A stretch of 64,000 nucleotides of DNA from Desulfobacca acetoxidans DSM 11109 (lineage in GTDB: Bacteria; Desulfobacterota; Desulfobaccia; Desulfobaccales; Desulfobaccaceae). The position numbers and the translations under genes were made by a program. The stretch covers positions 124,001 through 188,000 of the forward strand of contig NC_015388.1 of assembly GCF_000195295.1 (NCBI RefSeq), given 5' to 3'. Position 1 is the first letter of the stretch. Each line of letters opens with the position of its first letter. The notes beneath the pieces are model-generated. The model worked only from the letters and a program-made list of their open reading frames with translations, searched no databases and had not been told where the DNA came from. Of this stretch, positions 2,889 through 48,710 are shown in pieces.

Positions 2889-2917
2889 TTGACATCATCC
2901 GATGCCAATGCTATACA
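2889..2917 (+). promoter_or_regulatory. Strong sigma-70-type promoter ahead of the RiPP-like locus
   Basis: TTGACA at 2889-2894 is a perfect -35 box. After exactly 17 bp comes TATACA (2912-2917) as the -10 box. Transcription would start near 2924, producing the leader described next. It is the best promoter-like sequence upstream of the peptide/radical SAM cluster. Confidence 0.65.
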
Positions 2918-2923
2918 GTAGCC

Positions 2924-3076
2924 TGCAAAAAGCAATTTTTTACTCACTTCACCCGTACTGTTCCCAATGGTATGCTATGAAAGCGTTAGGGTGAAGGTGA
3001 TTTTTGGGGAAGGCTGGAAACTGGGGCCGCGAAGGTCTCTTCTCGGATTATTCCGAAGATCTTCGTGGCCTTTTTT
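2924..3076 (+). ncRNA. Short structured transcript or leader RNA ending at an intrinsic terminator
   Basis: Downstream of the promoter a first stem pairs CTTCACCC (2947-2954) with GGGTGAAG (2989-2996). A second, GC-rich stem from 3025 to 3070 is followed by six Ts. The region has no credible open reading frame. It would give an RNA of about 150 nt that could be a small RNA or, more likely given its position, an attenuated 5' leader of the downstream operon. I could not match it to a riboswitch class I know (no cobalamin, SAM, TPP or yybP-ykoY signature). Confidence 0.45.
3025..3076 (+). terminator. Rho-independent terminator in the leader
   Basis: GGCC at 3025-3028 pairs with GGCC at 3067-3070. 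The stem continues through CGAAG/CTTCG and an inner TCGGA/TCCGA helix, and is followed directly by TTTTTT (3071-3076). It lies about 350 bp upstream of the first radical SAM remnant. Confidence 0.7.
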
Positions 3077-3161
3077 ATTCGCGATTTTTTGAAAACGGAG
3101 GAACAAAGCAGGAATAACTCGGTCTCACCATTTATTGGAGCATTCGTATTAGGTTAGAGAT

Positions 3162-3244
3162 GGAAAGCAGCCTCCCCGCGGCCAACGGAATCGGCTGCCT
3201 TCCAAAGAGCCCCGCCTGTTCAAAGGTGTAAGCTCTTTGTTTTT
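3162..3244 (+). terminator. Second leader hairpin pair with terminator
   Basis: Two consecutive stem-loops occur. GGAAAGCAGCC (3162-3172) pairs with GGCTGCCTTCC (3193-3203). CAAAGAGC (3203-3210) pairs with GCTCTTTG (3232-3239), followed by TTTTTG. The second has the form of an intrinsic terminator. Because it follows another terminator and precedes the operon, an attenuation role is plausible. No gene is visible between 3077 and 3424. Confidence 0.55.
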
Positions 3245-3424
3245 GTATCCGATAGAGGTCCTGATGTCAAGTCCGCTCAAGGTCCGCCATCTGATTTTTG
3301 TCCATTTGTCCCGTCTTGTCTTTGCAAACTGCTGCTTTCGGCATGTTGATCAATGGATGATTATCGCCGGAATCCGAAAGGGGAGAGATCCGTTAGTTCG
3401 GATCAATTGTGGAAGAGGTTGCCC

Positions 3425-3999
3425 ATGTTGTTTCTTCCCGTCAATGTAACCCTTGAAGTGACAAATCAATGCAATCTGTCATGCAAACATTGTTTCAGAC
3501 ATTCGAGTTCCCGGATGAACGACGAGCTCTCTTCGGATGAGATTGAAGCTGTTCTGGATCAGCCGAATCGAAGATGAAAATATATTCCAATCCTCTGGGC
3601 TACTTGAACAGCCCTCTTTACGAGGAGATGAGAAACAAACAAATACGGCAGTGCTCCTGTGGGCGACACCTTTTGTTCATCAAGCCCAATGGCGCCTTGT
3701 CACCATGTGACTTCGATCTGTTTTCGGCGGGCAACGTGCGAGAACTGAAGATTGAGGAAGCATGGAGCAATGCTCCCGTTTTTCATACTTTCCGAAAGTT
3801 CGATCCGAGAGACCTCAAAGGAATCTGTGCGACATGTGAGATGAAAGAACCGTGCGGAGGCGGCTGTCGGGCCTTGGCCGTCATCCATTGCGGCGATTTT
3901 TACGGGGAAAATCCGATATACCCCCTTGTGAGCGCTGCCCGTGAAAAACTTGGCCAAGGAACAGTCATATCCGATAAACATGCACTACCGGGGGATTAA
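3425..3999 (+). pseudogene. Radical SAM/SPASM gene with a large internal deletion and frameshift
   Basis: The 5' piece starts at ATG 3425 after GGAAGAGG and encodes 50 residues including the [4Fe-4S] motif CNLSCKHC (Cys16, Cys20, Cys23). It ends at TGA 3575-3577. A second frame starting at ATG 3574 (ATGA overlap) runs to 3999 and carries a SPASM-like C-terminus with CSCG, SPCD, CATC and CGGGC. Compared with the two intact neighbours, roughly 165-170 residues of the radical SAM barrel are missing between the halves. A working enzyme is therefore unlikely. The alternative, that the 3' frame is a stand-alone SPASM-domain protein translationally coupled to a short peptide, cannot be excluded. Confidence 0.7.
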
Positions 4000-4159
4000 T
4001 GCATCGTATTATTCCTCTTATAGAATGAATACAATTTTTCTGTAAAGGAGGTGGATGGACATGCCGTATGTAAAACCGTCTATTAAAAGATATATGGCTC
4101 GTCCAGCTCACGGCAGCGCGTGTGGCCACTAATTGAATGATTACGCTCCCCCGGTAGTG
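3983..4159. repeat. 13-bp inverted repeat flanking the peptide gene
   Basis: CACTACCGGGGGA at 3983-3995 and its exact complement TCCCCCGGTAGTG at 4147-4159 are 151 bp apart and bracket the 23-codon peptide gene at 4061-4132. The left arm overlaps the last codons of the SPASM remnant. In RNA the arms could close a long stem that isolates the peptide cistron. In DNA they could be the ends of a small mobile or recombined segment. Confidence 0.7.
4061..4132 (+). CDS. Putative RiPP precursor peptide, 23 aa
   Basis: A short ORF preceded by an excellent Shine-Dalgarno (AAAGGAGGTG, 4044-4053) begins MPYVKPSIKRYM and ends RPAHGSACGH. A second in-frame ATG six bases upstream (4055) is too close to the Shine-Dalgarno to be preferred. 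Length and position, just before a PqqD-like protein and radical SAM/SPASM enzymes, match the PqqA arrangement. The C-terminal half holds one Cys, two His and Gly/Ser/Ala residues, suitable as a modified core and as metal ligands. The N-terminal half would be the recognition leader. There is no double-Gly cleavage motif. That it is translated and modified is inference. I do not know its family; Haft-type PqqD-linked peptide families such as geopeptide or mycofactocin should be compared. Confidence 0.7.
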   Translation: MPYVKPSIKRYMARPAHGSACGH

Positions 4160-4224
4160 AACTAAATGAATGCGCAGAGCAATCAGATGGATATATCCAT
4201 AGAAATCCTCAAAGGATTTATATC

Positions 4225-4506
4225 ATGATGACGGATTCATTATTTCGGTACGCCATAGATAACAGAAAAGATTTCAAAATCCGTGATGACGGCACCAACA
4301 TGTTCATTTACGAATACAAGAAGGGAATCATCACGGAATTGAATGAGACTGCTCGGTATGTATGGACCCTTATTGATGGAAATGAGACCCAAAACATCAG
4401 TGCCTTATATGCGGAGCGTTACGGTATCCTCATTGAGCATGCGGAAAAAGATGTTACCGAAGTGCTGGAAGCACTGGTGGACACCGGGATTCTTAAGCGC
4501 GTCTGA
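4225..4506 (+). CDS. PqqD-like peptide chaperone (RiPP recognition element)
   Basis: This 93-residue protein has the PqqD fold signature: a beta-rich N-terminus (DFKIRDDGTNMFIYEYKKGIITELNETARYVWTLIDG), then helices ending AEKDVTEVLEALVDTGILKRV. In PQQ and other RiPP pathways such proteins bind the precursor leader and hand it to the radical SAM enzyme. The start at 4225 has AAAGGA eight bases upstream; an ATG follows at 4228. The site lies in a small hairpin (AAATCC/GGATTT around 4205-4220), which may tune translation. It is the first intact protein after the peptide gene and is followed 12 bp later by the first intact radical SAM gene. Confidence 0.85.
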   Translation: MMTDSLFRYAIDNRKDFKIRDDGTNMFIYEYKKGIITELNETARYVWTLIDGNETQNISALYAERYGILIEHAEKDVTEVLEALVDTGILKRV

Positions 4507-4524
4507 ATTCAAGAGGAGATGACG

Positions 4525-5538
4525 GTGGCGTTTCAACTGCAATCCGTACACTTCATCATAACGAATCAATGCAATCTGAACTGTCTGCATTGTTTTGCGG
4601 ATTCCGGTGTGGCCGGATACGAGATGACAATGGATGAAATCCGTAAGGTACTGAGGGAACTAAGAGAACTTGGGGTCTTTCAGGTCCTGTTTACGGGTGG
4701 GGAACCCTTTTGCCGAAACGATTTCTTTGAGGTAATGGAAGACGCCGAAGCTATGGATTTCGCGATGGTGATTGAAACCAACGGCACATTGCTCGACGAG
4801 GAAAGGATACGGCGGCTGAAGAATTTCAGCATTGTATACGTGCAAATACCTTTCGAAGGGTTGGAAAATGTCAACGACACGATTCGCGGCGACGGGAATT
4901 TCAAATGTTCCCTGTCCGTTATCGAACAACTGACCAAAAACGATATCCCGGTGCGGGCACGGATCACCGCGACGAAAAAGTCGCTGAACGATTTGTACTC
5001 CCTGGTGAGCGTGTTGGTGCTCCTCGGCATATCTTCAGTGACCATCCGTGAGTTCGTCCCCCTGGGAAGAGGCGGGCAATTCGCGCATGAACTGCTTCTG
5101 GACACTCATGCAAAGGGCGAGTTCGCCAATATCATCGCTCGGATACGGTCGGAATTCGGTCCTTCTATGGACATCCAAGCGGCCGGAATCCACAACTATC
5201 TTGCGGGCAACGGATCATCCCCATGGGGGGGTGTCAAATATCGCAATTTGGCCATCCTGCCGGACGGTTGTGTGAATGTTTGTGAAATATTTCCCTTTTA
5301 TTGCGGCAACGTTCGTTTGCAGCCGCTTGCACACATTCTTGCAAACTCCCCCGTCATCAAATCATTCAGAGATTTCGACAGGAATCGGCTGACAGGCCAC
5401 TGCGCAGTCTGCTGCTTCAGGAACAAGTGTGACGGGTGTCGCTTGTTTTCATTCATGTTCAGAGGCGATATCTATACCGGAGATCCGCTTTGTTACTGGG
5501 CATGTGCGGAGAACGAGCCTAACTCTTTGGTCGTTTAG
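4525..5538 (+). CDS. Radical SAM/SPASM peptide maturase 1
   Basis: This enzyme (about 337 aa) has the radical SAM cluster motif CNLNCLHC near residues 16-23, the GGEP motif (FTGGEP) that binds SAM, and a C-terminal SPASM region rich in cysteines (CVNVC, YCGN, HCAVCCF, CDGCR, LCYWAC) expected to bind one or two auxiliary [4Fe-4S] clusters. SPASM enzymes typically install C-C, C-S or other crosslinks in RiPP precursors. GTG at 4525 is preferred because GAGGAG ends six bases before it; an ATG at 4519 abuts that site. It is paralogous to the next gene (shared ITNxCNLxCxHCF, GGEPF, IETN, FTPxGRG-like segments). It presumably acts on the 23-residue peptide delivered by the PqqD-like protein; the reaction is unknown. 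Confidence 0.88.
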   Translation: MAFQLQSVHFIITNQCNLNCLHCFADSGVAGYEMTMDEIRKVLRELRELGVFQVLFTGGEPFCRNDFFEVMEDAEAMDFAMVIETNGTLLDEERIRRLKNFSIVYVQIPFEGLENVNDTIRGDGNFKCSLSVIEQLTKNDIPVRARITATKKSLNDLYSLVSVLVLLGISSVTIREFVPLGRGGQFAHELLLDTHAKGEFANIIARIRSEFGPSMDIQAAGIHNYLAGNGSSPWGGVKYRNLAILPDGCVNVCEIFPFYCGNVRLQPLAHILANSPVIKSFRDFDRNRLTGHCAVCCFRNKCDGCRLFSFMFRGDIYTGDPLCYWACAENEPNSLVV

Positions 5539-5567
5539 ACCGGGTGGAGGAAAGGAAGACAGGAATC

Positions 5568-6602
5568 ATGGAGACAGTCCATATCAGTATCACGAATGCT
5601 TGTAATCTGAGATGTAAACATTGCTTTACTAACGCCGGAACTCCCACCCCAAATGAACTGACCCTCAACGAGTATGACGTTTTGTTTCGGGATCTTTACA
5701 AAATGGGAGTGTTCCAACTCGTCATAGCCGGGGGCGAACCTTTTATCAGGCCGGATGTATGGAAAATAATGGATTTGGCGGAAGCACTTGATTTCTGTTT
5801 ATTTATTGAGACCAATACAATGCTGCTCAGGGATGAAGACATAAAACGACTGAAGTCTTTTACCATAAGCCAGATGCACATTCCCCTGGAAGGAATGCGG
5901 GAGACGAACGACTACATACGAGGAAGGGAACATTTTGCTCACACTCTGGAAACGGTCCGCAAACTGAGTGCTGAAGACATCCCGGTGGAAATCCGAACAA
6001 CCGCCAGCAAAAGATCTATCGACGAATTGGAAGAGTTGGCGCTGCTGCTTGCGGACACGGGAGTAAATACCCTGTTTGTGAGCGAATTCACTCCGACGGG
6101 GCGCGGAATGAGCTATGCCCCGGAGCTATTGCTGGGTCTGGAACTGAAAAAAAAGCTCCACGACACCCTTGGCGAGCTTCGTTCAAAATACTACGACCGA
6201 ATTACAGTTGATGGCGATGCATGCGGATTCTTCGACGGTCACGAGAGACGGATGGGTTTCAGCAAAGACGAGAGATCGGCTTTCTGCGCCGCCATGAATG
6301 GGGAATCCTGTGTCATCCTGCCGAACGGAACGGTATCGCCGTGCGATCAATACGCCTTCCACGGAGGCAATATCCGTTTTCAGAGTATCCGTGAAATAAT
6401 AGAGAAATCTCCTGTCTTCAACTGGTTCCGAGAGTTTCCCCGGAGCGCCGTTTCAGGAACGTGCGGTGCCTGCAAGTTCAACGCACGTTGCGGTGGTTGC
6501 AGAATTTTCGCGTTTCTGTTCAACGGCGATATCTATTCGGAGGACCCCATGTGCTGGCGAGTCCTCGAAGCCCGCGGAACGGAAAGCCCGCTGTACGTTT
6601 GA
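5568..6602 (+). CDS. Radical SAM/SPASM peptide maturase 2
   Basis: This 344-residue paralogue of the preceding enzyme carries CNLRCKHC (Cys12, Cys16, Cys19), the SAM-binding GGEP and SEFTPTGRG. Its SPASM domain has FCAAMNGESC, SPCD, GTCGACKF and ARCGGCR. ATG 5568 is chosen because AAAGGAAG precedes it at a suitable distance; a GTG at 5544 overlaps the Shine-Dalgarno-like GGAGG. The stop of maturase 1 lies 29 bp upstream, so the two are probably co-transcribed. Two intact related maturases plus a third broken one suggest successive or site-specific modifications on one peptide, or redundancy after duplication. Function is inferred from family and context only. Confidence 0.88.
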   Translation: METVHISITNACNLRCKHCFTNAGTPTPNELTLNEYDVLFRDLYKMGVFQLVIAGGEPFIRPDVWKIMDLAEALDFCLFIETNTMLLRDEDIKRLKSFTISQMHIPLEGMRETNDYIRGREHFAHTLETVRKLSAEDIPVEIRTTASKRSIDELEELALLLADTGVNTLFVSEFTPTGRGMSYAPELLLGLELKKKLHDTLGELRSKYYDRITVDGDACGFFDGHERRMGFSKDERSAFCAAMNGESCVILPNGTVSPCDQYAFHGGNIRFQSIREIIEKSPVFNWFREFPRSAVSGTCGACKFNARCGGCRIFAFLFNGDIYSEDPMCWRVLEARGTESPLYV

Positions 6603-6639
6603 AGAGACTGATGCTTTCCACCCGGGGGCGGATATTCGG

Positions 6640-7893
6640 ATGACACAGAAAGAATCATCGGGTCTGAAGCTCGTTCTCCACAGGGATTTCGGCACCCTTC
6701 TGTTCGGACAGGTCGCTTCGAGAATCGGCAACGGTGTCAATTGGGTGGCGGTCATGTGGGTGGTTTACGAATCGACGGGGTCGCCTCTGAAGATGAGCCT
6801 GGTCGGAATCTGTCAGGTGGGACCTTTGATACTTCTGGGGCCGTTTCTGGGGGCTTATCTGGACCGTGCTGACCGAAAAACCGTCATGATCATCTGCGAC
6901 ATTGCATGCGCCTTATGTGTTGCGATGATTCCCCTGCTGGACCGACTCGGCGTTCTCACACTTTGGCTGGTGTACCTGCTGGTAGTGGCCAAGGCTTTGT
7001 TCGCAGAACTTTTCAGCATCGGAATCAACTCGGGTGTTCCCCTGATCGTGCCCAACAAAGACCTTCCTGCTGCCAATTCACTCTTGGCGGGTTCCGTGCA
7101 GACCGGACAACTCGTGGGCCCGGCGTTGGCCGCTTACCTCATGTCGGTATTCGGAGCACACCAGGTTCTTTATTTCGATTCAGCGACCTTTCTGATGTCC
7201 GGCGTCTGTGTCGGCCTAACGCGCATTCCCCGCGCAGACCGAAAATCCGAGACGGATAAGCGGATTTGGTCCGAAACATGGATAGGACTCGTCTTTTTGG
7301 TCAGGGGGGGGTCTGTGCTTCTTTATATCGTTGCGATGGTGGCTGCGGTCAATTTGTGTATTCCATCCCTGATGGTTCTAATACCGATCTATTCCGCCGA
7401 AATCCTGGGTGCCGGCAAAGAAGGCTTTGCCGTCATTTTTTCCGGGTGGGGCGCGGGAACGATGAGCGCTTTCCTATTCATAGCGTCGCACAGGGAGCGA
7501 TTCCGAGATTACCGTTGGATCACGCGGGCCTATATGCTTTCCGGTTCGTCCGTTGTCGTCCTCGGTCTGTGTGGCAACCTTTATCTTTCGATGCTTTCAT
7601 TTGCGCTCATGGGCTTTTGCATCGGCACTGCCGGTGTGCTTATTTCCACCCTCATTCAGCGCATAACCCCCCCACATATGCGCGGGCGTGTGTTCGCCAT
7701 GTACGGAATGGGAACGCACGCGACTATCCCGTTCGGCATGTTGGCTGCCGGAGCGCTCTGTAGTCATTACCGACCGGATTCGCTCATCGTTTGGGTGGGA
7801 CTTGCCCTATTGATAGCGGCACTGGCGGGTGCAATTTTCATGAATCCTCAACCGGAGCAGAATGAACTGCAACAATTGGAGAAGTCGTTATGA
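6640..7893 (+). CDS. MFS exporter (EntS/MFS_3-like)
   Basis: A 12-helix major facilitator of 417 aa. Conserved features include the loop 2-3 motif GAYLDRADRKT and a second-half counterpart ending MRGRVFAMYGMG. This subgroup (EntS-like, MFS_3) includes siderophore and drug exporters. The ATG at 6640 gives a normal N-terminus (MTQKESSGLKLVLHRDFG); the frame is open further upstream into the radical SAM gene, but that extension is not transporter-like. It overlaps the methyltransferase gene by 4 bp (ATGA), implying coupling. In context it most likely secretes the mature peptide product. Substrate specificity is not visible in the sequence. Confidence 0.85.
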   Translation: MTQKESSGLKLVLHRDFGTLLFGQVASRIGNGVNWVAVMWVVYESTGSPLKMSLVGICQVGPLILLGPFLGAYLDRADRKTVMIICDIACALCVAMIPLLDRLGVLTLWLVYLLVVAKALFAELFSIGINSGVPLIVPNKDLPAANSLLAGSVQTGQLVGPALAAYLMSVFGAHQVLYFDSATFLMSGVCVGLTRIPRADRKSETDKRIWSETWIGLVFLVRGGSVLLYIVAMVAAVNLCIPSLMVLIPIYSAEILGAGKEGFAVIFSGWGAGTMSAFLFIASHRERFRDYRWITRAYMLSGSSVVVLGLCGNLYLSMLSFALMGFCIGTAGVLISTLIQRITPPHMRGRVFAMYGMGTHATIPFGMLAAGALCSHYRPDSLIVWVGLALLIAALAGAIFMNPQPEQNELQQLEKSL

Positions 7894-8780
7894 ACGAAAA
7901 CGACGCCATCGCTCTCTATCGATCCCTGTGGATCGAATGCGTCGAAGCAACCCCGTATCACTATCTGTCCGAGAACACCATGGAACAAAGAAGAGTCAGG
8001 AATGCTCCAACCTATCATGCAAAAGCTTCTTCGTCTCCTCACGTTCTGGCTATGGTCGATGATCTTCTGAGGCGCACACAGACGCATGAATCGATCCGTT
8101 CGGTCTTGGAGATTGGCGCCGGAACCGGTGTGTTCACGATACCTCTGGCGAAGAGAGTGCCCAGAGTCACCGTGATCGATCCCTCGCCCGGAATGCTCGG
8201 AGTATTGCGACACAATTTGAAACTCGAAAATCTCTCCAACGTTGAAATTATCGAAGGTTCCTGGCCCCGAAGTTTTTCCGGCAAACGTTATGACCTCGTA
8301 CTGGCGGCGAACTGCCTGCTCGCTTTTTACGACCTGCATGAAGCATTGTCCCGAATGATTCAATCAGCGAATCGGGCCTTGTGTCTGATCAACCCGATGA
8401 CCCCACGACCGCGCCCCCATGATCCGGAATTCAGACAGCGTCTGAAGCAAATCGATCGTGGACCGGACACCGACAGCCTCCACCTTCTGCTGGGAATGCT
8501 CGGCACCGAGTCCGTCTACCCCCTGGTCCGCATCTTCAGCACCCCGTCCTGGAGCTATCCCGATGTGGGCAAGCTTCATGATCGTTGGGCAGAGGCATTG
8601 AACCTCGAATCGGAAGAAGAGCACGCCCAATTAAGATCGCTCCTGACCGAAAACATGCGGGAGAGCGAACAAGGATGGACCGTCCCCGGTATCTCTTTCC
8701 ACTTCCTCCTCTGGGCGGACCTCACCGTGAACGACAACGCTCAGCCACGGCGGAACAACGGAAAGCAAGGCGGACCTTAA
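7890..8780 (+). CDS. Class I SAM-dependent methyltransferase
   Basis: A 296-residue methyltransferase with the glycine-rich SAM-binding motif LEIGAGTG at residues 73-80, an acidic residue at the end of strand 2 (VTVIDPS) and post-motif YDLVLAANCLLAFYDL, all of the Rossmann-like class I fold. The N-terminal 60 residues and the C-terminal 100 residues, unlike common small methyltransferases, probably form the substrate cap. The 4-bp overlap with the exporter gene places it in the same transcript, so methylation of the modified peptide or an intermediate is the simplest role. An O- or N-methyl target cannot be predicted. Confidence 0.85.
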   Translation: MNENDAIALYRSLWIECVEATPYHYLSENTMEQRRVRNAPTYHAKASSSPHVLAMVDDLLRRTQTHESIRSVLEIGAGTGVFTIPLAKRVPRVTVIDPSPGMLGVLRHNLKLENLSNVEIIEGSWPRSFSGKRYDLVLAANCLLAFYDLHEALSRMIQSANRALCLINPMTPRPRPHDPEFRQRLKQIDRGPDTDSLHLLLGMLGTESVYPLVRIFSTPSWSYPDVGKLHDRWAEALNLESEEEHAQLRSLLTENMRESEQGWTVPGISFHFLLWADLTVNDNAQPRRNNGKQGGP

Positions 8781-8886
8781 TGCACGGAATCGAAATCGGT
8801 TTCGATGCAAGGGAAAGGGGGTGAGCAAAGGGGAGCGAAAGAGGCAACAAGGCGTACTTTTCAAAGCGGAAAGAGGTAGCCAGCGG

Positions 8887-8927
8887 CGCCAACCCATCAG
8901 ACTGCTTACGGGGGCTTTCGGTTGGCG
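8887..8927 (+). promoter_or_regulatory. Intercistronic hairpin between methyltransferase and receptor genes
   Basis: CGCCAACC (8887-8894) pairs perfectly with GGTTGGCG (8920-8927). No T-run follows, so it is not an obvious terminator. It lies in the 209-bp gap 8781-8989, which otherwise holds no gene, and may stabilise or process the mRNA upstream of the receptor cistron. Confidence 0.4.
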
Positions 8928-8989
8928 GTATTCGCACTGCCCAAATTCAGGGTTGCCAATTTCCAGTATACATTACGGAGGAGGGAGTA

Positions 8990-10975
8990 ATGGCACTTCG
9001 CTGTTTGTTAATGTTAATAGTATGGACTATTTGTATGATATCCGATTCCGTGTTCGCTGTTGAACACAAATTGGAACAAGTCATTATTACCACCGAGAGT
9101 TTGAAATTCAAGGAGGAAAAGGAAAAAGAACCGGCGATGATAAAGATTTTCACCAGTCAGGATATTGAAAAAATGAACCTCAAGGATGCATGGGATATTT
9201 TATATCATATCAGCGGCATCACTTTGATGAAATATACGGGTGGCGGAATCGGTCAAGCCCGCGTGGCGATACGGGGACAAATGCTTCATGCCGGCGCCAA
9301 TCACTTTGCCGTGTTTCTCGATGATGTTCCTTTAAACGAACCCGGCGGAGCAGGCCCTATTTTTGCCGGACAGGCCGACTTGAACAGCATTACTCCCGAG
9401 ATGATCGATTATGTTGAAGTCATCAAGGGACCGTTCGACATCGATGCGGGAGATTTCAATACGGCAGCTGTGATCAAATTCTACACCAAGAAGTACAGCA
9501 AGAAGTCTTCCATCACAGCAGAGGGTGGCAGTTATGGATACGCTCGTGGGCAAGCCAGTCTGAGTAATGAATTCCTCAGTAACTTTAAACACTTTACATC
9601 AATAGAATTCAAACGTCAGGACGGCTTCGCCGATAACACCGATATCGATTATTTCGTGAACGCCAATTCCAACATCACCTATGGCGATCTCAATGCAAAC
9701 CATACGACCCTGTCTCTGACAGCCTTCTCTTACGATGCCAAGGTCCCGACCGGCTTCGGCAAGGTATATTGGGATGGGGGAGCATGGAAACTGGCTCCCA
9801 ATGATTCGGACGGACGCACCAAGGACGAGGCGCGATTCGCCTTGAACAATGTCTGGATCATTTCACCGCAATGGAAGTGGACCAATCTGGCATGGGCCAG
9901 GTATTGGCAGGGCACGTGGTGGGAAGACACGCATCTTGTGTGGACCGGTTCCCAACAACGTGAACAGTACCAAAAACGCAACGACTTCGGTTACCGTTCT
10001 CACCTGGATTACGATACCGAAATCTGGGGACGGTATTTTCAGGCCATTGTCGGCTTCGATTTCCGAAAGGATTTCTACGATACGGATCAGTGGCGGACCG
10101 ACGGCCACCGGAACAGAGTAAACAAAACTCTGGGATTCGACGGCGATTACATTCAGGTTGCCAGCTATTTCAAGATGCAAATGGATATTGTGCCGTCCGT
10201 GCGGGCTTACGTGGGACTACGCTACGATCACATCAGATACGATGTTGACAGTGAGTTTTCGGACAATTTCAAAGTGGAGTCGAATCCTGTTTCTCCCAAA
10301 GGGGGAGTAACCTGGCAGGCTACGGAAAACATCAGCTTTTTCGTTCAGGCATCCAAAGGAACCCGGACCCCCGACCCTCAATACGCAAACGAGGACGGAG
10401 TCACCACATCGATCAACTATGAAATCGGCTCCAAGGGACATTTTCTGGGAGGGCGACTGAACTACATGATCAGCGGCTACTATACCCAGCTTAAGGACGT
10501 GAATGTCAGAGAGACCGCCTCGCAAAAATATCTTTTCACCGGAGATCAGAACGTGCCTGGCGTGGAGGTCGAGCTGTCGGCCAACGTGATCAAGCCCCTC
10601 ACCCTATGGGCAACCTTCGGTTACAACTGGGCCGAATGGGAAAACCCCAAAGATGTCGAAGGCAAAGGGATCGTAGGTGTAGACCCGTGGGATTTCAGTT
10701 TAGGCGCAGACTACGATTCCGGTTTCGGAATCAGAGGGCGCATCGAATACATTACGAACGGCAGGCAGTGGATGAACTCGAACTATGACCGCCGAGAACC
10801 AAAAACCTATCAGATCATCAACCTCCTCCTAATGTATAACCCGATGAAGAATTTGGAAATTTTCCTCAAAGCGAACAACCTGTTGGATGAACGGTATTGT
10901 ACGTGGCCTGCTTATGATTTCTACCGGCCCGAGCCGGGAATCAACTTCACGGGCGGATTGAAACTCAGTTTCTGA
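8990..10975 (+). CDS. TonB-dependent outer-membrane receptor
   Basis: A 661-residue outer-membrane transporter. A signal peptide of about 23 residues (LLMLIVWTICMISDSVFA) is followed by a TonB-box-like segment (LEQVIITTES). The plug domain follows (IFTSQDIEKMNLKDAWDILYHISGI to YVEVIKGPFDIDAGDF), then a 22-strand barrel ending LKLSF. The plug contains the usual VRIRGQ-like segment (VAIRGQMLHAGANHF) and the LDDVPLNEP turn. The Shine-Dalgarno GGAGGAGGG precedes the ATG. By family it imports a scarce large ligand such as a metal chelate, using TonB energy; tonB/exbBD are not in the window. Next to an exporter and an inner-membrane ABC importer, it is likely the re-uptake receptor for the metal-loaded peptide product. 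Confidence 0.9.
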   Translation: MALRCLLMLIVWTICMISDSVFAVEHKLEQVIITTESLKFKEEKEKEPAMIKIFTSQDIEKMNLKDAWDILYHISGITLMKYTGGGIGQARVAIRGQMLHAGANHFAVFLDDVPLNEPGGAGPIFAGQADLNSITPEMIDYVEVIKGPFDIDAGDFNTAAVIKFYTKKYSKKSSITAEGGSYGYARGQASLSNEFLSNFKHFTSIEFKRQDGFADNTDIDYFVNANSNITYGDLNANHTTLSLTAFSYDAKVPTGFGKVYWDGGAWKLAPNDSDGRTKDEARFALNNVWIISPQWKWTNLAWARYWQGTWWEDTHLVWTGSQQREQYQKRNDFGYRSHLDYDTEIWGRYFQAIVGFDFRKDFYDTDQWRTDGHRNRVNKTLGFDGDYIQVASYFKMQMDIVPSVRAYVGLRYDHIRYDVDSEFSDNFKVESNPVSPKGGVTWQATENISFFVQASKGTRTPDPQYANEDGVTTSINYEIGSKGHFLGGRLNYMISGYYTQLKDVNVRETASQKYLFTGDQNVPGVEVELSANVIKPLTLWATFGYNWAEWENPKDVEGKGIVGVDPWDFSLGADYDSGFGIRGRIEYITNGRQWMNSNYDRREPKTYQIINLLLMYNPMKNLEIFLKANNLLDERYCTWPAYDFYRPEPGINFTGGLKLSF

Positions 10976-11005
10976 ACATGGGCGAGGGGAAACGTTGCGA
11001 GGGAA

Positions 11006-11056
11006 AGGCGGAAGGATAACCTTACCCAAAGTTTCGGGAAGGGTTTCCTTCCGCCT
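11006..11056 (+). promoter_or_regulatory. Intercistronic stem-loop before the binding-protein gene
   Basis: AGGCGGAAGG (11006-11015) pairs perfectly with CCTTCCGCCT (11047-11056), with further AACC/GGTT and CCC/GGG pairing inside. It is not followed by a T-run, so a mRNA-stabilising or processing role between the receptor and the binding-protein genes is likelier than termination. Confidence 0.5.
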
Positions 11057-11110
11057 GCGCTCCGCGGCGTTTCACTCTTCCTGTCCCAAAATTTTCATGT
11101 GGAGAAACGG

Positions 11111-12745
11111 ATGCGAATTCCGGCATCTCATTCACTGAAGCGGTTATGGATTGTGCTGATCGCTTCAGCACTTGTCGCGACCGGTTGCGGCGATACGGCG
11201 GCCGATTCCGGTGAGTTGCGCACGTTGCGGATGGGAAGCTTCAGATCCGAAGTGAAACTTCTCAATCCCTGGGACGAAGGACTTTTCGTGAATATCCCGG
11301 CGTCCCTGATCCATTCCAAACTGGTTGAATACGCGCCCGATTACCGTATCGTACCGATGCTGGCCGAAAGCTGGGAGATTTCGGAAGGCGGCAAAGCCCT
11401 TACGTTCCACTTGAAACACGGCGTGCGATGGCATGACGATCTACCGGTCACCGCCATGGATGCAGCGTTCACTCTCGAATTCTATAAAAAGCATGAGCGA
11501 TGGTCGCAGTGGGCACAATACCTGGAGCGCGTCACTGTATGGGATACGCATACCTTCACCGTTCATCTTATGAAAGATGTGGGTTTTTTCCTGCTGCAAT
11601 CGTGGCTCCCGACCAGCACCGTCATCCTGCCCGAACACGTATGGAGAGATGTTGTCCGTCCGCGAGAGTATTCGGGAGCGAATGCATTGGTCGGCTGCGG
11701 TCCCTATCGGTTCGAGCACTACGACCCTGCGGCCCAGTCGCTGACGCTCACCGCAAATCCGCACTATTTCGGGGGACAGCCCGCAGCGGAACGGCTGATC
11801 TGGCGCCAGTTCAAATCCTTCGATTCCCTTTTGCTTTCGATGATCAAAGGGGACATCGACGGCCTGATGGAGTACTATAGTCCGTTTCCCTTGTCACGAC
11901 TCAGAGCGATAGAGGGGTCGCCCGTTGAGTTGCTTTCCACACCGGATATGGGAGTTCCTGCAGTCCTGTTTTTCAATCATCGCAAGTTTCCGATGAATGA
12001 TCTCAGATTTCGCGAGGCCGTGGCTTGCGCCGTGAACTACGAGGAAATTCTGCGGGTGGTTGCGGAGAACCGGGGGCAACCGCCCGTTCGTGGCTTTATG
12101 CCTCCTGCCTATCGCTATTTCAAACAGAGGCAGCAGCAGCTCGAACAGAACCTCGTCCGAGCCGCCGGTCTTCTCGATCAAACGGGCTTGGTCCGATCCA
12201 CCGAAGGCGTGCGCACAACGCCGGACGGAAAACCTTTGCGCTTGGATCTGCTGGTGCAGGGGGGATCACGGTATCCGCATCTCGTTCAGACTGCGAAACT
12301 GGTCGCCCGGCATCTGAGGGGAATCGGGATCGAGGCCACACCTGTCGTTTACGATTTCACCGTAGCAGATAGCAAACTTTTCGGTCTCAGGGATTACGAC
12401 ATCTGCGTGGGACGACTTTTGCCGCTGGATGTGATTGCAGGCTGCGGAACGTTAGTGCTTGCGGACTCCCCCGGCAACATGGGAACCTGCCGGGATGCTC
12501 GGTTGCTTGCTCTCACCGAAGCCTTTTACAGGGCCAAAGACGACGAACAAATGCGTCAGGCGGCTTGGGCGTTGCAGGAATACTACGCCTCTCAACTACC
12601 CGCTTTCGCCCTGTATCATGGGCAAGTTTACTATCCTTGCCGATCCGATCGGTTCGAGGGTTGGACAGTGATGAGCGGTGGGGTCGTCAATTCCCAGACA
12701 TGGTCAGGCATCCGGTTGAGAAATTCACAAAGTTCCGAGCCGTGA
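11111..12745 (+). CDS. Solute-binding lipoprotein of a NikA/DppA/OppA-type ABC importer
   Basis: This 544-residue family 5 extracellular solute-binding protein has a lipoprotein signal (LIASALVATGC, lipid on Cys about 24) and family blocks such as LNPWDEGLFVN, LAESWEISEGGKALTFHLKHGVRWHDDLPVTAMDAAFTLEF and GCGPYRFEHYDP. ATG 11111 has GGAG six bases before it; an upstream GTG at 11099 overlaps that site. Members bind peptides, nickel or nickel/cobalt/zinc chelates such as staphylopine (CntA). Here it would collect the ligand delivered to the periplasm by the TonB-dependent receptor and pass it to the permeases that follow. The stop overlaps the permease start by one base (TGATG). Confidence 0.88.
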   Translation: MRIPASHSLKRLWIVLIASALVATGCGDTAADSGELRTLRMGSFRSEVKLLNPWDEGLFVNIPASLIHSKLVEYAPDYRIVPMLAESWEISEGGKALTFHLKHGVRWHDDLPVTAMDAAFTLEFYKKHERWSQWAQYLERVTVWDTHTFTVHLMKDVGFFLLQSWLPTSTVILPEHVWRDVVRPREYSGANALVGCGPYRFEHYDPAAQSLTLTANPHYFGGQPAAERLIWRQFKSFDSLLLSMIKGDIDGLMEYYSPFPLSRLRAIEGSPVELLSTPDMGVPAVLFFNHRKFPMNDLRFREAVACAVNYEEILRVVAENRGQPPVRGFMPPAYRYFKQRQQQLEQNLVRAAGLLDQTGLVRSTEGVRTTPDGKPLRLDLLVQGGSRYPHLVQTAKLVARHLRGIGIEATPVVYDFTVADSKLFGLRDYDICVGRLLPLDVIAGCGTLVLADSPGNMGTCRDARLLALTEAFYRAKDDEQMRQAAWALQEYYASQLPAFALYHGQVYYPCRSDRFEGWTVMSGGVVNSQTWSGIRLRNSQSSEP

Positions 12746-13734
12746 TGTACGCGCACGCGACTGCCCGCATCCTTAAATACACAATGGCGGTGATCACCGT
12801 TGTCACCCTTCATTTCATTCTCATACGGATGATGCCAGGCGATCCGCTGGTGGGCCTGCTCGGGACGAGGAATTACTATTCCTTGCTTTCTCTCGATCCC
12901 GAAGCCTTAAAAGCGGCCGGAGCGGAATATGGGCTGGATCGACCGATTCATGTGCAATATGCAAAACATATGGGGCGACTGTTGCGGGGAGATCTCGGTC
13001 ACACCCCGTATTACGGCAAACCGGTGTTGGAAGTGATCCTGTTTCGAATGAAATGGACGCTGATTCTCCTTGTTCCGGCGGTGATTCTGTCGACAGTGTT
13101 GGGCGGATCGTTGGGGGCTCTGGCGGGGTGGGAGACGAACTCGAAGACGGACCGGCTGCTGACTGCAACATTCCTCTTCTTACAAGCGATGCCGGGATAT
13201 TGCATGGGTTTGATTCTCGTGCTGATCCTGTCGTTCCATGCCGGTTTATTTCCGCTGAGCGGAATGGCGGGAGAAGGCAGCGAGGGAGCCACACGGATCG
13301 GAGACCTGATTCGACACACAGTCCTTCCCATTGCCGCCCTTGTCTTGCATGGATCGGCGACGCCTTATATCGTCATGCGGAGTGTCGTGCGGCAAAGTGC
13401 GGGAGAAAACTACGTCTTGACAGCAATTGCCCTGGGGCTTACGGGACGCAGAGTACTTTTCCGGCATATCGTGCCGAACGTATTGCCCACGTTGATAACG
13501 ACAGTGGCTTTGGAATGCGGGCATATGGTCGGAGGTGTGCTGCTGGTGGAGACGGTTTTCTCTTGGCAAGGCATGGGTACGTTGATATACGACGCTGTGG
13601 TTTCGCGTGATTATCCCCTGTTGTCGGGCTGCCTGCTCTTTCTTACTATCGGAGTTATTGCGGCGAATGCATTAGCCGACCTAGCCTGTACGTTTATCGA
13701 CCCCAGAGTGCGGGATGGAATGAGTCATGGGTAG
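12745..13734 (+). CDS. ABC importer permease (DppB/NikB-like)
   Basis: A 329-residue inner-membrane permease of the DppB/OppB/NikB family. The first helix (ILKYTMAVITVVTLHFILIRMMPGDP) is the characteristic N-terminal signature. The EAA loop near NYVLTAIALGLTGRRVLFRHIVPNVLPTLIT would contact the ATPase. ATG 12745 overlaps the upstream stop by one base, and the 3' end overlaps the next gene by 8 bp, so the three are translationally coupled. It pairs with the permease half of the next protein to form the channel. Confidence 0.88.
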   Translation: MYAHATARILKYTMAVITVVTLHFILIRMMPGDPLVGLLGTRNYYSLLSLDPEALKAAGAEYGLDRPIHVQYAKHMGRLLRGDLGHTPYYGKPVLEVILFRMKWTLILLVPAVILSTVLGGSLGALAGWETNSKTDRLLTATFLFLQAMPGYCMGLILVLILSFHAGLFPLSGMAGEGSEGATRIGDLIRHTVLPIAALVLHGSATPYIVMRSVVRQSAGENYVLTAIALGLTGRRVLFRHIVPNVLPTLITTVALECGHMVGGVLLVETVFSWQGMGTLIYDAVVSRDYPLLSGCLLFLTIGVIAANALADLACTFIDPRVRDGMSHG

Positions 13735-15553
13735 ACACGGCATTTTCACGTTCGGTCATGTAGTCCTTCTATCCGTGATACTTTCCGTTCTGTCGGGTCC
13801 CGTGCTTGGACCGATCTTTTTCAATACGAGAGGAAGGCCCTTCCTGCCTCCGAATTTCAGTCACCCTTTGGGTGTCGACGAATTGGGGCGCGACGTGTTG
13901 ATTCTGCTCTTTGAAAGTGGGAAGTTTTCTCTTGCTGTAGGATTGGCAGCAGCTGTTCCTGCGACACTGTTCGGTGCCGTAGTCGGCATCGCATCGGGTT
14001 ATTTTCGCGGTCGAACCGACGCCGTATCGATAGTGCTCTGCGACGTTTTCTTGCTGATTCCGGGCTTGCCGCTCATGATCGTCGTTACTTCATATTTGAA
14101 ACCCGGCTTCCGAAGTATTGCACCGACTATTGCCGTGCTCAGCTGGGCCGGTACGGCACGGGTCGTGCGTGCGTCCGTGATGCAAGTGAGAGGAATGCCC
14201 TTCATCGTTGCCACCCGGGCTTTGGGAGTGTCCCATTTTCACATAATGCTCCGGCATGTCCTGCCCCATGTCCGTCAGCTGGTTCTGGCTAGGGGATGTC
14301 TGGCGGTATCCGGCGCCATGTTGGCCGAGGCCGGTCTGAGCTTCCTGGGACTGGGCGATCCCATCCGAAGCAGTTGGGGAACAATGCTTTATAATGCCTT
14401 TTCACATGGAGCAGTGGTGAACGGATTTTACTGGTTGTACCTGCCGCCGGTGTTTTGTATCTCTCTGACGGTGCTCGCCTTCACGCTTTCGGGGTTGGCT
14501 TTCGAACCTGCCGTGCCGCGCTCGGGCGCTTTCCGGGTAAGGATAAGATACGGCCGGGATTCAACCCCTTGCTCTGAGCTCACTGCGTCCCTGATCTGCA
14601 ACCAGACGGACACTCAAAATGTGATTCTTTCCGTTAGGAGTCTGACGGTGGAGTTTCCCGAATCGAACGACATGCACCGGTGTGTGCTGGATCACGTGGA
14701 CTTTTGCGTCAGAGAGCAAGAAAAGGTTGCACTGATCGGCGAGACCGGCAGCGGCAAGAGCCTGCTGCTTACAACATTGCTCCGGTTGCTGCCGGGAGAC
14801 GCCCGGGTTTCGGGGGAAATTCTTTTTCGGGGTCGGAACCTCCTGCAGCTTACAAACAAGCAGATGCGCGAACTGAGAAGGTATAGATTGGCTTACGTAC
14901 CTCAGACTGCCGGCAACGCCCTAAACCCCGTTCTCAGTATCGGCTTTCAGGTGGCCGAATCGATATGCTCAAACTGCCGGACGAGCAGGTCTTCCGCGTA
15001 TGCAAAGGCAAATGACTTTCTGCACCGGATGGGTATCCGGGAGGTCGATCTTAGGAGGCTCGATTATCCTCACCGATACAGTGGCGGCATGAAACAACGC
15101 GCCTTGTTGGCCATGGCGCTTGCTCGTGAAGCAGACCTGTTGTTGGTCGACGAACCGACCAAAGGACTGGATTACAAGGCGAAGAACGAGCTTTTGAATG
15201 TCCTCACGGAGTTCCGGGACGAGGCGATTCTGATGGTGACGCATGATTTATGGTTTGCAGAACGGTTCGCCGACCGTATAGCAGTGATGACCGGTTCGAC
15301 GGTCGTAGAAGAAGCCTCTCGGAAACATTTCTTTTCAAATCCTCTGCACCCTTATTCACAGGCATTGCTGGCCGCCCTGCCCTCCCGCGGCATGAAGGTT
15401 GCCCTCGCTCCGACTCCACGGAACGCTGACCGGCAAAAAACGGGATGCCCATTTCAGCGGGAATGCCGCCATGCAACCGGGCGTTGTCTTGAGCGTCCCC
15501 CTCTTTTCCTGCGCGACGGTTGCGTCGTGAGGTGCTGGCTTTATGCTTCTTGA
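13727..15553 (+). CDS. Fused ABC permease-ATPase (DppC-DppD / NikC-NikD)
   Basis: One 608-residue frame joins two subunits that are usually separate. Residues 1-265 are a DppC/NikC permease (LGVDELGRDVL start motif, EAA loop ATRALGVSHFHIMLRHVLP at 162-180). Residues about 298-608 are a DppD/NikD ATPase with Walker A GETGSGKS (338-345), signature YSGGMKQR (451-458), Walker B LLLVDEPT (471-478) and the H-loop VTHD. The C-terminal oligopeptide/dipeptide domain contains four or more cysteines (CPFQREC, GRCLERPP, C..C), as seen in NikD/OppD relatives that may hold an Fe-S cluster. The linker (266-297) shows no sequencing-type break. It overlaps both neighbours (8 and 11 bp). Confidence 0.88.
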   Translation: MGRHGIFTFGHVVLLSVILSVLSGPVLGPIFFNTRGRPFLPPNFSHPLGVDELGRDVLILLFESGKFSLAVGLAAAVPATLFGAVVGIASGYFRGRTDAVSIVLCDVFLLIPGLPLMIVVTSYLKPGFRSIAPTIAVLSWAGTARVVRASVMQVRGMPFIVATRALGVSHFHIMLRHVLPHVRQLVLARGCLAVSGAMLAEAGLSFLGLGDPIRSSWGTMLYNAFSHGAVVNGFYWLYLPPVFCISLTVLAFTLSGLAFEPAVPRSGAFRVRIRYGRDSTPCSELTASLICNQTDTQNVILSVRSLTVEFPESNDMHRCVLDHVDFCVREQEKVALIGETGSGKSLLLTTLLRLLPGDARVSGEILFRGRNLLQLTNKQMRELRRYRLAYVPQTAGNALNPVLSIGFQVAESICSNCRTSRSSAYAKANDFLHRMGIREVDLRRLDYPHRYSGGMKQRALLAMALAREADLLLVDEPTKGLDYKAKNELLNVLTEFRDEAILMVTHDLWFAERFADRIAVMTGSTVVEEASRKHFFSNPLHPYSQALLAALPSRGMKVALAPTPRNADRQKTGCPFQRECRHATGRCLERPPLFLRDGCVVRCWLYAS

Positions 15554-16235
15554 AGCCGTCGGATTGGCCAAAGCCTTCCGGATGGGCTTTTCCAGGAACC
15601 GTGTCAGGCAAGTGCTGAGAGGTATAAATCTCTGTCTGGAACGTGGTGAAACCCTCGGTATCGTGGGAGACAGTGGCTCAGGCAAGAGCACTCTCTGCCT
15701 TATCTTGGCGGGTCTGTCAAATCCCGATAGGGGATGTCTCATGCTCGGAGGAACGAATGTCCGGGGTATGCGCGGAAGTCAACGAATGCGATTCCATCGG
15801 CGGGTGCAGATACTCTTCCAGCATCCCGAAACCGTGTTCGATCCGCTCCGGACGCTTCGTTACAGCTTGATCGAACCCCTCCGCACACATGGGCTGCCGG
15901 TTTCGGAAGAGATCATCGCCTTACAGCTCCGTCGTGTCGGCCTCGACACTGCGGTCCTGTCTCGCCGTCCGGCACAACTCAGCGGGGGAGAACTCCAGCG
16001 GTTGGCCATAGCACGAGCGCTGGTTCTACAACCGGAAGTCATAATTTTAGATGAACCCACCAGCATGCTCGATGCGATCACTCAGGCACGCATCATGCGC
16101 TTACTGGAAGACATCCGAGAAGCAAACGACATCTCCTATCTGTTTGTCAGCCACGATCTCCCTCTGGTCCGGTTGTTCAGCGACAGGGTGTGCCTGCTGC
16201 AGGAAGGCACGCTCGAATCGTTTGAACTCCGGTAA
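15543..16235 (+). CDS. ABC importer ATPase (DppF/NikE-like)
   Basis: A 230-residue ATPase with Walker A GDSGSGKST (42-50), signature LSGGE (146-150), Walker B VIILDEPT and the H-loop SHDLPLVRLFSD. It lacks the long C-terminal oligopeptide domain, as is typical for NikE-type second ATPases. It overlaps the fusion gene by 11 bp and closes the operon. With the ATPase half of the fusion it would form the heterodimeric motor for the binding-protein-dependent importer. Confidence 0.88.
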   Translation: MLLEAVGLAKAFRMGFSRNRVRQVLRGINLCLERGETLGIVGDSGSGKSTLCLILAGLSNPDRGCLMLGGTNVRGMRGSQRMRFHRRVQILFQHPETVFDPLRTLRYSLIEPLRTHGLPVSEEIIALQLRRVGLDTAVLSRRPAQLSGGELQRLAIARALVLQPEVIILDEPTSMLDAITQARIMRLLEDIREANDISYLFVSHDLPLVRLFSDRVCLLQEGTLESFELR

Positions 16236-16665
16236 ACGAGACCACCGACCTCATTCCACCCTCCCCACCGACATCCAACGGCGGATGCCCGGCGGGCGTC
16301 CTCCGGGATACGGACCGCGCCAGTTCGTCCGAATCGTTGAGACGTAGGTGTCGGAAGAGTCTTCATTAAATACCCGCCAATACTATCGGCCACCCACGAA
16401 CCATGAAAATGGTTTACCGGCAGCACGAAGCACTTCAGTTGTTTGGGGCGAATACAAGATTCGCCCCAAGCAACTTCTCCTCTCATATCATGAACTAGCC
16501 AAATACTAAATATTCCTAACTAATATTTCACTTTCTTCTTTCAAGAATCGAATATTATTCAAATTAATTTGATTTAAGTTAAACACCAACCGGGGATGAA
16601 GAGCATTCTCCTATCCCGGCGGCATATTCGGATTGGGGTACCAATTTGTGTAAAGGAGGTGAGGC
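16236..16665. other. Intergenic region with short repeats, no gene seen
   Basis: No coding frame with a ribosome-binding site is visible. The stretch carries a GGGGCGAAT/ATTCGCCCC hairpin (16445-16467) without a clear T-run, and copies of short dispersed repeats. ACCATGAAAATGG (about 16398) and ACTTCAGTTGTTTGGGGCG (about 16432) recur in diverged form near 19750 and 42380-42540. AT-rich sequence from 16500 could hold the promoter of the phosphatase gene. Confidence 0.5.
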
Positions 16666-16722
16666 ATGGAAGTATTGAATAATCTGATTTCTTCAAGTGC
16701 CATGAATTATTTAACCATTTGA
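16666..16722 (+). CDS. Possible 18-aa leader peptide upstream of the phosphatase
   Basis: A very short frame starting MEVLNNLISSS and ending NYLTI has a consensus Shine-Dalgarno (AAAGGAGGTG) six bases before its ATG and ends 18 bp before the phosphatase ATG, which has its own AAGGAG. It may be a translated upstream ORF that couples or regulates expression. The stretch TGTAAAGGAGGTG also precedes the RiPP-like peptide gene at 4061. No family is recognised. Confidence 0.35.
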   Translation: MEVLNNLISSSAMNYLTI

Positions 16723-16740
16723 TTATCGAAGGAGAAGACC

Positions 16741-48704: not shown

Positions 48705-48710
48705 GCTTCG

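Follow-up and report, generated by a model that had tools for sequence, protein, structure and literature searches.

What might one bacterial gene run make that joins a tiny peptide gene to radical SAM enzymes, an exporter and a complete importer? Such a run occupies positions 3425-16235 of a 64,000-nucleotide stretch of Desulfobacca acetoxidans DSM 11109 (contig NC_015388.1; hereafter the window). The original prediction, made from the sequence alone, had listed a 23-aa peptide ORF, a PqqD protein, two intact radical SAM/SPASM enzymes (rSAMs), an MFS protein, a methyltransferase, a TonB receptor and a binding-protein ABC importer, and had read them as a RiPP metallophore system. Pfam and NCBIfam profile matches bore out this gene list and added a third radical SAM gene that has lost its middle part. 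All cassette genes lie on the + strand in the order of Table 1.

Table 1 Features of the gene run and its upstream region in the window.
Feature	Position	Strand	Evidence
Promoter-like site TTGACA-17-TATACA	2889..2917	+	read by eye; weak; unlisted by the consensus scan, whose pattern demands a final T
P1 hairpin of leader RNA, AUGCU-AUGAA-AGCGU	2972..2986	+	among the weaker P1 copies
Terminator-like hairpin of leader RNA, overlapping P2 (GGCC-GCGAA-GGUC)	3023..3077	+	computed hairpin
N-terminal end of a third radical SAM gene, decayed (rSAM-B type)	3425..3577	+	MLFLPVNVTLEVTNQCNLSCKHCF...; tblastn piece 46% identical
C-terminal SPASM end of the third radical SAM gene, decayed	3574..3999	+	PF13186 2.7e-11; 113 aa align with rSAM-B of L040 (45%) and L041 (43%)
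Precursor peptide gene, MPYVKPSIKRYMARPAHGSACGH, 23 aa	4061..4132 (alternative start 4055)	+	ORF preceded by AAAGGAGG; homologues in other loci
PqqD-like leader-binding protein (predicted)	4225..4506	+	PF05402 1.9e-12; orthologues in relatives
rSAM1, radical SAM/SPASM, type A	4519..5538	+	profile matches
rSAM2, radical SAM/SPASM, type A	5544..6602	+	profile matches
MFS exporter (predicted), EntS-like	6640..7893	+	EntS model 7.4e-29, below cutoff; MFS_1, MFS_3
Class I SAM methyltransferase	7890..8780	+	PF13649 2.7e-13; 30-41% local identity to cassette methyltransferases
TonB-dependent receptor	8990..10975	+	plug and barrel domains; siderophore-receptor model 8.9e-31, below cutoff
SBP_bac_5 substrate-binding lipoprotein, NikA-like	11099..12745	+	8e-57; NikA model 5.4e-26, below cutoff; lipobox LVATGC
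Permease B (start approximate)	12745..13734	+	Opp2B nickel permease 1.4e-62, below cutoff
Fused permease C and ATPase	13727..15553	+	BPD_transp_1 and ABC_tran
Second ATPase, NikE-like	15543..16235	+	NikE 1e-58, below cutoff

A conserved peptide family precedes PqqD

The search for conserved neighbourhoods and short ORFs proposed with the original prediction recovered a cassette conserved in Bacteria and Archaea, with relatives in Methanothrix-type archaea and Peptococcaceae-type Firmicutes. Among the matches listed, five loci, the window included, carry an intact PqqD gene, and in all five an ORF of 23-31 aa lies just upstream of it. The five peptides share the leader Y[VI]KPx[VI], and their tails carry His/Cys. 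A chance ORF is ruled out by the homologues at the same place in the four other loci and by the motif, which none of the other 24,640 short ORFs in the scan contained. Between the two closest peptide genes, 2, 4 and 16 differences fall on the first, second and third codon positions, respectively. Each of the five leaders also contains YxxPx-aliphatic, the signature that is read by PqqD-like B1 proteins in lasso peptides (PMC10368454). A short precursor gene beside a PqqD/RRE and a SPASM enzyme, conserved over five loci, assigns the cassette by gene content to the broad class of RRE-dependent radical SAM/SPASM RiPPs, with putative modification of the precursor. No dedicated leader protease was seen in the cassette, which counts against the metallophore reading.

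Radical SAM enzymes and methyltransferase

In the window, both intact rSAMs are type A copies and share 39% identity. Two types occur in the relatives, and the conserved partner type, rSAM-B, has decayed in the window: the first two ORFs of the run are the two ends of a single rSAM gene whose middle has been deleted, which fits the intact partner type in the relatives. SkfB, PqqE, 5wgg and 5v1q were the PDB entries closest to the rSAM proteins, a result in favour of the metallophore reading. The methyltransferase model (pLDDT 60) matched N-, O- and C-methyltransferases equally. Neither the peptide nor the cassette occurred in further genomes whose rSAMs are tandem or high-scoring (L165-L168, L199-L203). 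Spread by plasmids was rejected, as plasmid matches were below 30% identity and the annotated ones were NirJ, MftC, TIGR04053 or plain radical SAM proteins; spread by phages was rejected as well, with only weak or short matches on viral contigs.

The importer and its linkage to the peptide module

With one permease joined to one ATPase in a single gene, the importer comprises four genes. Permease B probably starts near 12745 and not at 12565, given that its family match sets in only at residue 68. Orthologues of the importer occur across the cassettes, and nickel transporters are its nearest families. The NikA, NikB, NikE and Cnt equivalogs are the closest named relatives of the window's importer, yet they score under cutoff; indeed every transporter match falls below its curated cutoff, and this counts against the metallophore reading, as does the MFS protein, whose window copy is not orthologous to those of the relatives. 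A comparison of the TonB receptor with PDB sequences gave no match at 1e-5. The model of the binding protein (pLDDT 63) matches the SBP fold, with AppA, opine binders, NikZ, NikA and CntA all within about 2.5 Z. This tie between peptide, opine and metal binders is a further point against the metallophore reading, and assigning a ligand from the structure was rejected, as the model ties many ligand classes.

Homologous loci without the peptide or without the importer would, according to the original prediction, have spoken against it. All five intact-PqqD loci have the peptide, and in four of them SBP_bac_5 genes lie within the cassette or next to it, with importers orthologous to that of the window; the exception, L039, situated on a 4.2-kb contig, carries a Peripla_BP_2 binding protein instead. 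A Firmicute locus, L290, has the importer, rSAM-B, the MFS protein and the methyltransferase, but within the 20 kb read it shows no PqqD/peptide module, which counts against the metallophore reading. This locus is also what lends some weight to the view that two independent modules are combined here, a RiPP pathway and, next to it, an importer of nickel, cobalt or tetrapyrroles for which the RiPP product is no substrate. CobN-like, ExbB-like and DUF2149 genes in the importer clusters of L041 and L290 might suit tetrapyrrole uptake, and in Methanothrix (L284) a further importer with a methyltransferase sits apart. Against this, the two modules co-occur in bacterial as well as archaeal loci, and in L040 and L041 their genes are intermingled; L290 itself retains rSAM-B, the MFS protein and the methyltransferase, and the same genome has a second SBP_5/rSAM/PqqD locus. 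We regard two independent modules as unlikely.

A leader RNA common to nickel/cobalt transporters

In D. acetoxidans and Firmicutes, the cassette units are preceded by a two-hairpin leader RNA. The same RNA occurs elsewhere ahead of nickel/cobalt ECF transporters (CbiM/CbiQ), TonB receptors and NikA-like SBP_bac_5 genes. Because it is common to nickel/cobalt transporters, a metal role of the cassette gains independent support, and the RNA probably controls expression of the cassette. The window copy lies about 1 kb before the peptide gene and its P1 is weak, both of which count against the metallophore reading. The leader RNA matched no family in Rfam 15 (threshold E = 5 for the window, E = 1 elsewhere). 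Targets of ANTAR antitermination consist of two hexaloops with A1 and G4 (PMC8934654). Many P1 loops fit this A1/G4 hexaloop; an ANTAR reading is not claimed here because the P2 loop has five bases.

The leader RNA also bears on the remaining explanations. Processing of the peptide to a small cofactor, redox-active or not, as for PQQ or mycofactocin, with the importer acting in salvage, would account for the PqqD protein, the SPASM enzyme and a peptide of similar size; trimming by peptidases would make a leader protease within the cassette unnecessary, and PQQ has its own TonB receptor. It fits poorly with a leader RNA shared with Ni/Co transport, a run that includes an MFS exporter and a Nik/Opp importer and has no dehydrogenase partner, and top PQQ and mycofactocin scores far under their cutoffs, and we consider it improbable. 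An exported antimicrobial or signalling peptide sensed via the Opp-like importer is more doubtful still: radical SAM RiPPs are often antimicrobial, and MFS export with SBP_bac_5 import fits known peptide signalling, but the run has neither an immunity nor a response-regulator gene, and a TonB receptor and a Ni/Co leader RNA would be unexpected.

Proposed pathway

Taken together, the metallophore reading was supported in part. In its favour are the peptide in all five intact-PqqD loci among the matches listed, the orthologous importer and the leader RNA common to nickel/cobalt transporters; against it stand L290 without a PqqD/peptide module and the window's intact rSAMs, which are both of one type. 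On the observed gene content, conserved peptide family, orthologous importer and shared leader RNA, we think it reasonably probable that these genes serve to make and take up a metallophore of ribosomal origin that is modified by radical SAM enzymes, has a re-import system of its own and most likely gathers nickel or cobalt. PqqD would bind the 23-aa peptide at its Y-[VI]-K-P-x-[VI] leader and pass it to the SPASM radical SAM enzymes, which would modify the His/Cys-bearing tail, and the methyltransferase may tailor the product further. The MFS protein would then export it; once loaded with metal, the product would be carried across the outer membrane by the TonB receptor and into the cell by the Nik/Opp-type importer, with expression probably governed by the leader RNA. 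Proposed here from the genes are how the peptide is modified, in what order the steps follow, that the product leaves the cell and binds metal, and which metal this is.

More tentatively, the cassette may represent a radical-SAM-made RiPP nickelophore (or cobaltophore) spread across Bacteria and methanogenic Archaea, which in bacteria is placed under an undescribed two-hairpin attenuator RNA that marks a broader nickel/cobalt uptake group across Desulfobacterota and Firmicutes. To our knowledge, no radical-SAM RiPP metallophore has been described, and MNIO enzymes make all the RiPP metallophores familiar to us, of which the best known are for copper. Literature searches for radical SAM RiPP metallophores and nickelophore RiPPs, and for a conserved RNA motif of nickel transporters, gave nothing fitting, with most subscription papers outside their range. 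If correct, a radical-SAM-made nickel/cobalt peptide metallophore in acetate-using anaerobes would bring in new chemistry together with a new ecological currency. A sulfate reducer carries the cassette, as do methanogens of a type that is its rival for acetate in sludge, and methanogens depend on nickel enzymes. The leader RNA offers a handle for finding the remaining metal-uptake genes and is a candidate metal sensor.

Comparison with known systems

PQQ (PqqA/PqqD/PqqE) and mycofactocin (MftA/MftB/MftC) resemble the cassette in the tiny precursor, the PqqD-like protein and the SPASM radical SAM enzyme, whereas the cassette adds a methyltransferase, an exporter, a dedicated importer and, in the relatives, two rSAM types. 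Both were rejected as identities: the window's rSAMs reach 104 and 95 bits against PqqE (cutoff 381) and 117 and 135 bits against MftC (cutoff 265), and its PqqD scores 21 (cutoff 46). SynChlorMet (ScmD/E/F) and GeoRSP likewise combine PqqD with SPASM enzymes in anaerobes; they were rejected at 18-19 bits for PqqD (cutoffs 100) and 67-117 bits for the rSAMs (cutoff 400), as were the heme d1 rSAM families, with scores far under cutoffs. Lasso peptides share the YxxPx-aliphatic leader and a PqqD-like protein, and a lasso PqqD model is the best NCBIfam match of the window's PqqD, below cutoff. In place of the lasso cyclase and B2 protease, however, the cassette has radical SAM enzymes, and neither a B2 protease nor an asparagine-synthetase-like cyclase was found by Pfam among the genes of 3425-16235.

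Staphylopine/pseudopaline (Cnt) and NikABCDE are alike in MFS export and re-import by a NikA/CntA-type ABC system, and Gram-negative versions use a TonB receptor. The Cnt opine is made by nicotianamine-synthase-like and dehydrogenase enzymes, whereas the cassette uses a ribosomal peptide. Methanobactin, which is served by a TonB receptor and a binding protein, is a ribosomal peptide metallophore, as the cassette's product would be, judged from its genes. The same likeness holds for the MNIO thiooxazole peptide metallophores that have been described (PMC13097082). Methanobactin and these metallophores rely on MNIO enzymes, with copper as the metal of methanobactin, whereas the cassette has radical SAM enzymes in a nickel/cobalt context.

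A candidate RiPP metallophore cassette in Desulfobacca acetoxidans

D. acetoxidans is a sulfate reducer that oxidises acetate and was obtained from anaerobic sludge; the chromosome of strain DSM 11109 comprises 3,282,536 bp (PMC3156406), and the window covers its positions 124001-188000. The original prediction listed the genes of a candidate ribosomally encoded, radical-SAM (rSAM)-modified, methylated metallophore system, all of which are present in the run at 2889-16235. Downstream of the rSAM pair, an EntS-like MFS, a class I methyltransferase, a TonB receptor and a binding-protein-dependent importer follow in this order, and one permease and one ATPase of the importer are fused. The most economical reading is an rSAM RiPP metallophore, for nickel or cobalt, that is taken back up by a dedicated system. 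Immediately 5' of the cassette lies a 427-aa ORF (1308-2591) for which neither Pfam nor NCBIfam gave a match at E 0.001. Elsewhere in the window (47709-50295), a ZnuA-type binding protein, an ATPase and an ABC-3 permease form an ordinary zinc or manganese importer.

Features of the cassette, its relatives and the leader RNA
Feature	Location	Description
Leader RNA	window 2972-3077	P1 at 2972-2986
Terminator-like element	window 3023-3077	overlaps P2
Third rSAM gene, two ends only	window 3425-3577 and 3574-3999	upstream of peptide; middle missing
Precursor peptide ORF	window 4061-4132	encodes MPYVKPSIKRYMARPAHGSACGH, preceded by AAAGGAGG
PqqD	window 4225-4506	followed by two SPASM rSAM proteins
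rSAM1	window 4519-5538	
rSAM2	window 5544-6602	
Further leader RNA sites	L308:825; L309:837; L310:779; L319-L347	
Element copy, D. acetoxidans		5' of CbiM-CbiQ-type ECF transporter
Element copy, D. acetoxidans		5' of TonB receptor/DUF4198/TP_methylase operon
Element copy, D. acetoxidans		5' of apparent broken TonB receptor
Related locus	L039	4.2-kb contig binned as Bacteroidales
Related locus	L040	Methanosaeta MAG
Related locus	L041	Peptococcaceae MAG
Related locus	L042	Methanothrix MAG

A conserved short ORF precedes PqqD

At each of the five loci where PqqD is intact, a short ORF with a ribosome-binding-site-like sequence lies directly 5' of it, encoding MPYVKPSIKRYMARPAHGSACGH in the window and MEKYVKPEVKTTYIVGSVHTLCVSVR, MEKYVKPEIKMSYIVGSVHTLCVNVK, MMRGYIKPVVRIRRVACTPHTLGVSR and MDKKYIKPSVTDISSAAKFGCTISHGHSGGF in the others. 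The pattern M-x(1-3)-Y-[VI]-K-P-x-[VI], derived from these same five peptides, had no further match when 24,640 short ORFs from 2.9 Mb of sequence were scanned, a result that speaks to specificity and not to discovery. Every peptide tail contains at least one His and at least one Cys. Between the two most similar peptide genes, 2 differences fall on first, 4 on second and 16 on third codon positions, the pattern expected of a coding sequence under selection. Judged by sequence, this ORF is a real peptide gene.

The cassette is sparsely distributed

Relatives were sought with an alignment of the two window rSAM enzymes in a set that represents each species by one genome; at least four loci (L039-L042) stood out as clearly closer, at 33-40% identity. 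Their neighbourhoods repeat PqqD, rSAM and MFS, and sufficiently long contigs add a second rSAM, the methyltransferase, SBP_bac_5 and Nik/Opp permeases and ATPases. Peripla_BP_2 binding proteins are a further component of L039 and L040. In L042, a single rSAM was seen and SBP_bac_5 is encoded in the opposite orientation. The L039 rSAM is 64% identical to that of Methanosaeta and both loci have the same dockerin-type binding proteins, so the Bacteroidales-labelled contig may be mis-binned archaeal DNA. One archaeal match inspected among those at 33-39% identity (longer ORFs), L168, was not a cassette. At least two further partial cassettes occur in Firmicutes: PqqD is truncated at its start in L289, and no PqqD, peptide or rSAM-A was found within the 20 kb read of L290.

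Across a whole-genome sample of Desulfobacterota, the window enzymes scored 526 and 493 bits, compared with 276 for the next genome, a sharp gap. A search of three same-genus genomes found no cassette. This sparse, patchy distribution makes spread by horizontal transfer likely.

The Methanosaeta contig (L284) carries an extra SBP_bac_5/permease/methyltransferase set near the cassette (9840-18075, minus strand) and more Peripla_BP_2-like ORFs close to it. Inside the Firmicute cassettes, a CobN-like short protein is encoded with ExbB-like and DUF2149 genes (L041:1458-4925; L290:14949-17332, minus strand), which may have a role in metal release or energised uptake.

Maturation enzymes and transporters

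rSAM1 and rSAM2 are 39% identical. The relatives have two enzyme types, A (L039, L040:10004, L041:9986) and B (L040:7240, L041:5146, L042:2715). The two intact window enzymes obtain their best scores with type A, and the remnant aligns with type B over 113 aa; the D. acetoxidans set thus seems to comprise a type-A pair, with type B lost. rSAM1 retains CNLNCLHC and six SPASM-region cysteines; it lacks two found in rSAM2 and most relatives and may thus bind fewer clusters. Profile comparison placed SkfB, PqqE, 5wgg and 5v1q among the solved relatives.

Identity to the counterparts in the related cassettes is 46-50% for window permease B, 49% for permease C and 32-33% for the binding protein, which reaches 22-26% with other Opp-type proteins from the same loci; the permeases, too, are closer to their cassette counterparts than to other Opp-type proteins there. 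The MFS showed no similarity to those of the relatives at E 1e-4. Binding protein, permease B and second ATPase matched nickel families best, all below curated cutoffs, and we therefore withhold a function by name. The modelled binding protein (pLDDT 63) matches AppA, NikZ, NikA, CntA and opine binders with scores no more than about 2.5 Z units apart, so many ligand classes fit and none is singled out. Instead of one metallophore cassette, the genes could form two modules that work independently; they might also serve a cofactor pathway or produce a signal.

A leader RNA opens cassette and metal-related units

Comparison of upstream regions revealed a terminator-like element, CCRCGAAGGY...TTCGYGGnnTTTT, which opens units of the Firmicute cassettes and is also present in the window; D. 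acetoxidans has three further copies. A stricter pattern occurred in 34 of 148 Desulfobacterota genomes (the host and its relatives), the reversed pattern in none. By Pfam, proteins tested 3' of the element belonged to CbiM, CbiQ, DUF4198, TonB receptors, SBP_bac_5, TP_methylase, CbiK and DUF3842. At L313 and L315, the leader RNA is followed by a DUF3842 gene and, farther 3', by a cobalamin riboswitch. The window copy, about 1 kb 5' of the peptide, is among the weaker ones; between it and the decayed rSAM gene are more strong stem-loops and then a T run (3150-3262).

The leader RNA contains two hairpins. P2 (GCC-ACGAA-GGC) has a stem overlapping that of the terminator, and its outer pair is G-C in 30, A-U in 8 and G-U in 4 of 42 sequences. 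The loop of P1, upstream of P2, ends in GAA in 29 of 42; any other trinucleotide reached at most 11, and the next most frequent ones come from these loops read with an offset. When 17 sequences were aligned, 92% of cells paired, with both-side changes at six of nine pairs. No Rfam family matched. By analogy to ANTAR antitermination, something holding P1 and P2 would block terminator formation, which is a likely logic of this RNA. In these bacteria, nikMQO with nikK and nikL have been named nickel transporters and NikR their regulator; in that account of nikMQO and NikR, such an RNA goes unmentioned (PMC545781).

Related RiPP systems

The Firmicute genome G971 contains a second RiPP-like locus, which follows the same principle with its genes arranged differently (L317:1109-8486, minus strand): leader RNA, SBP_bac_5, a 38-codon peptide ORF with Cys/His (VEWRLELEEFNFAGCMHNHNSGVSGAMTQVEMSDPEED), rSAM/SPASM, PqqD, rSAM/SPASM and an ABC-2 exporter.

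In lasso peptides, the Tyr, Pro and Leu of the leader motif YxxPxL are needed for recognition by PqqD-like B1 proteins (PMC10368454). The leader of the cassette peptide matches this rule, a likeness of motif at the sequence level.
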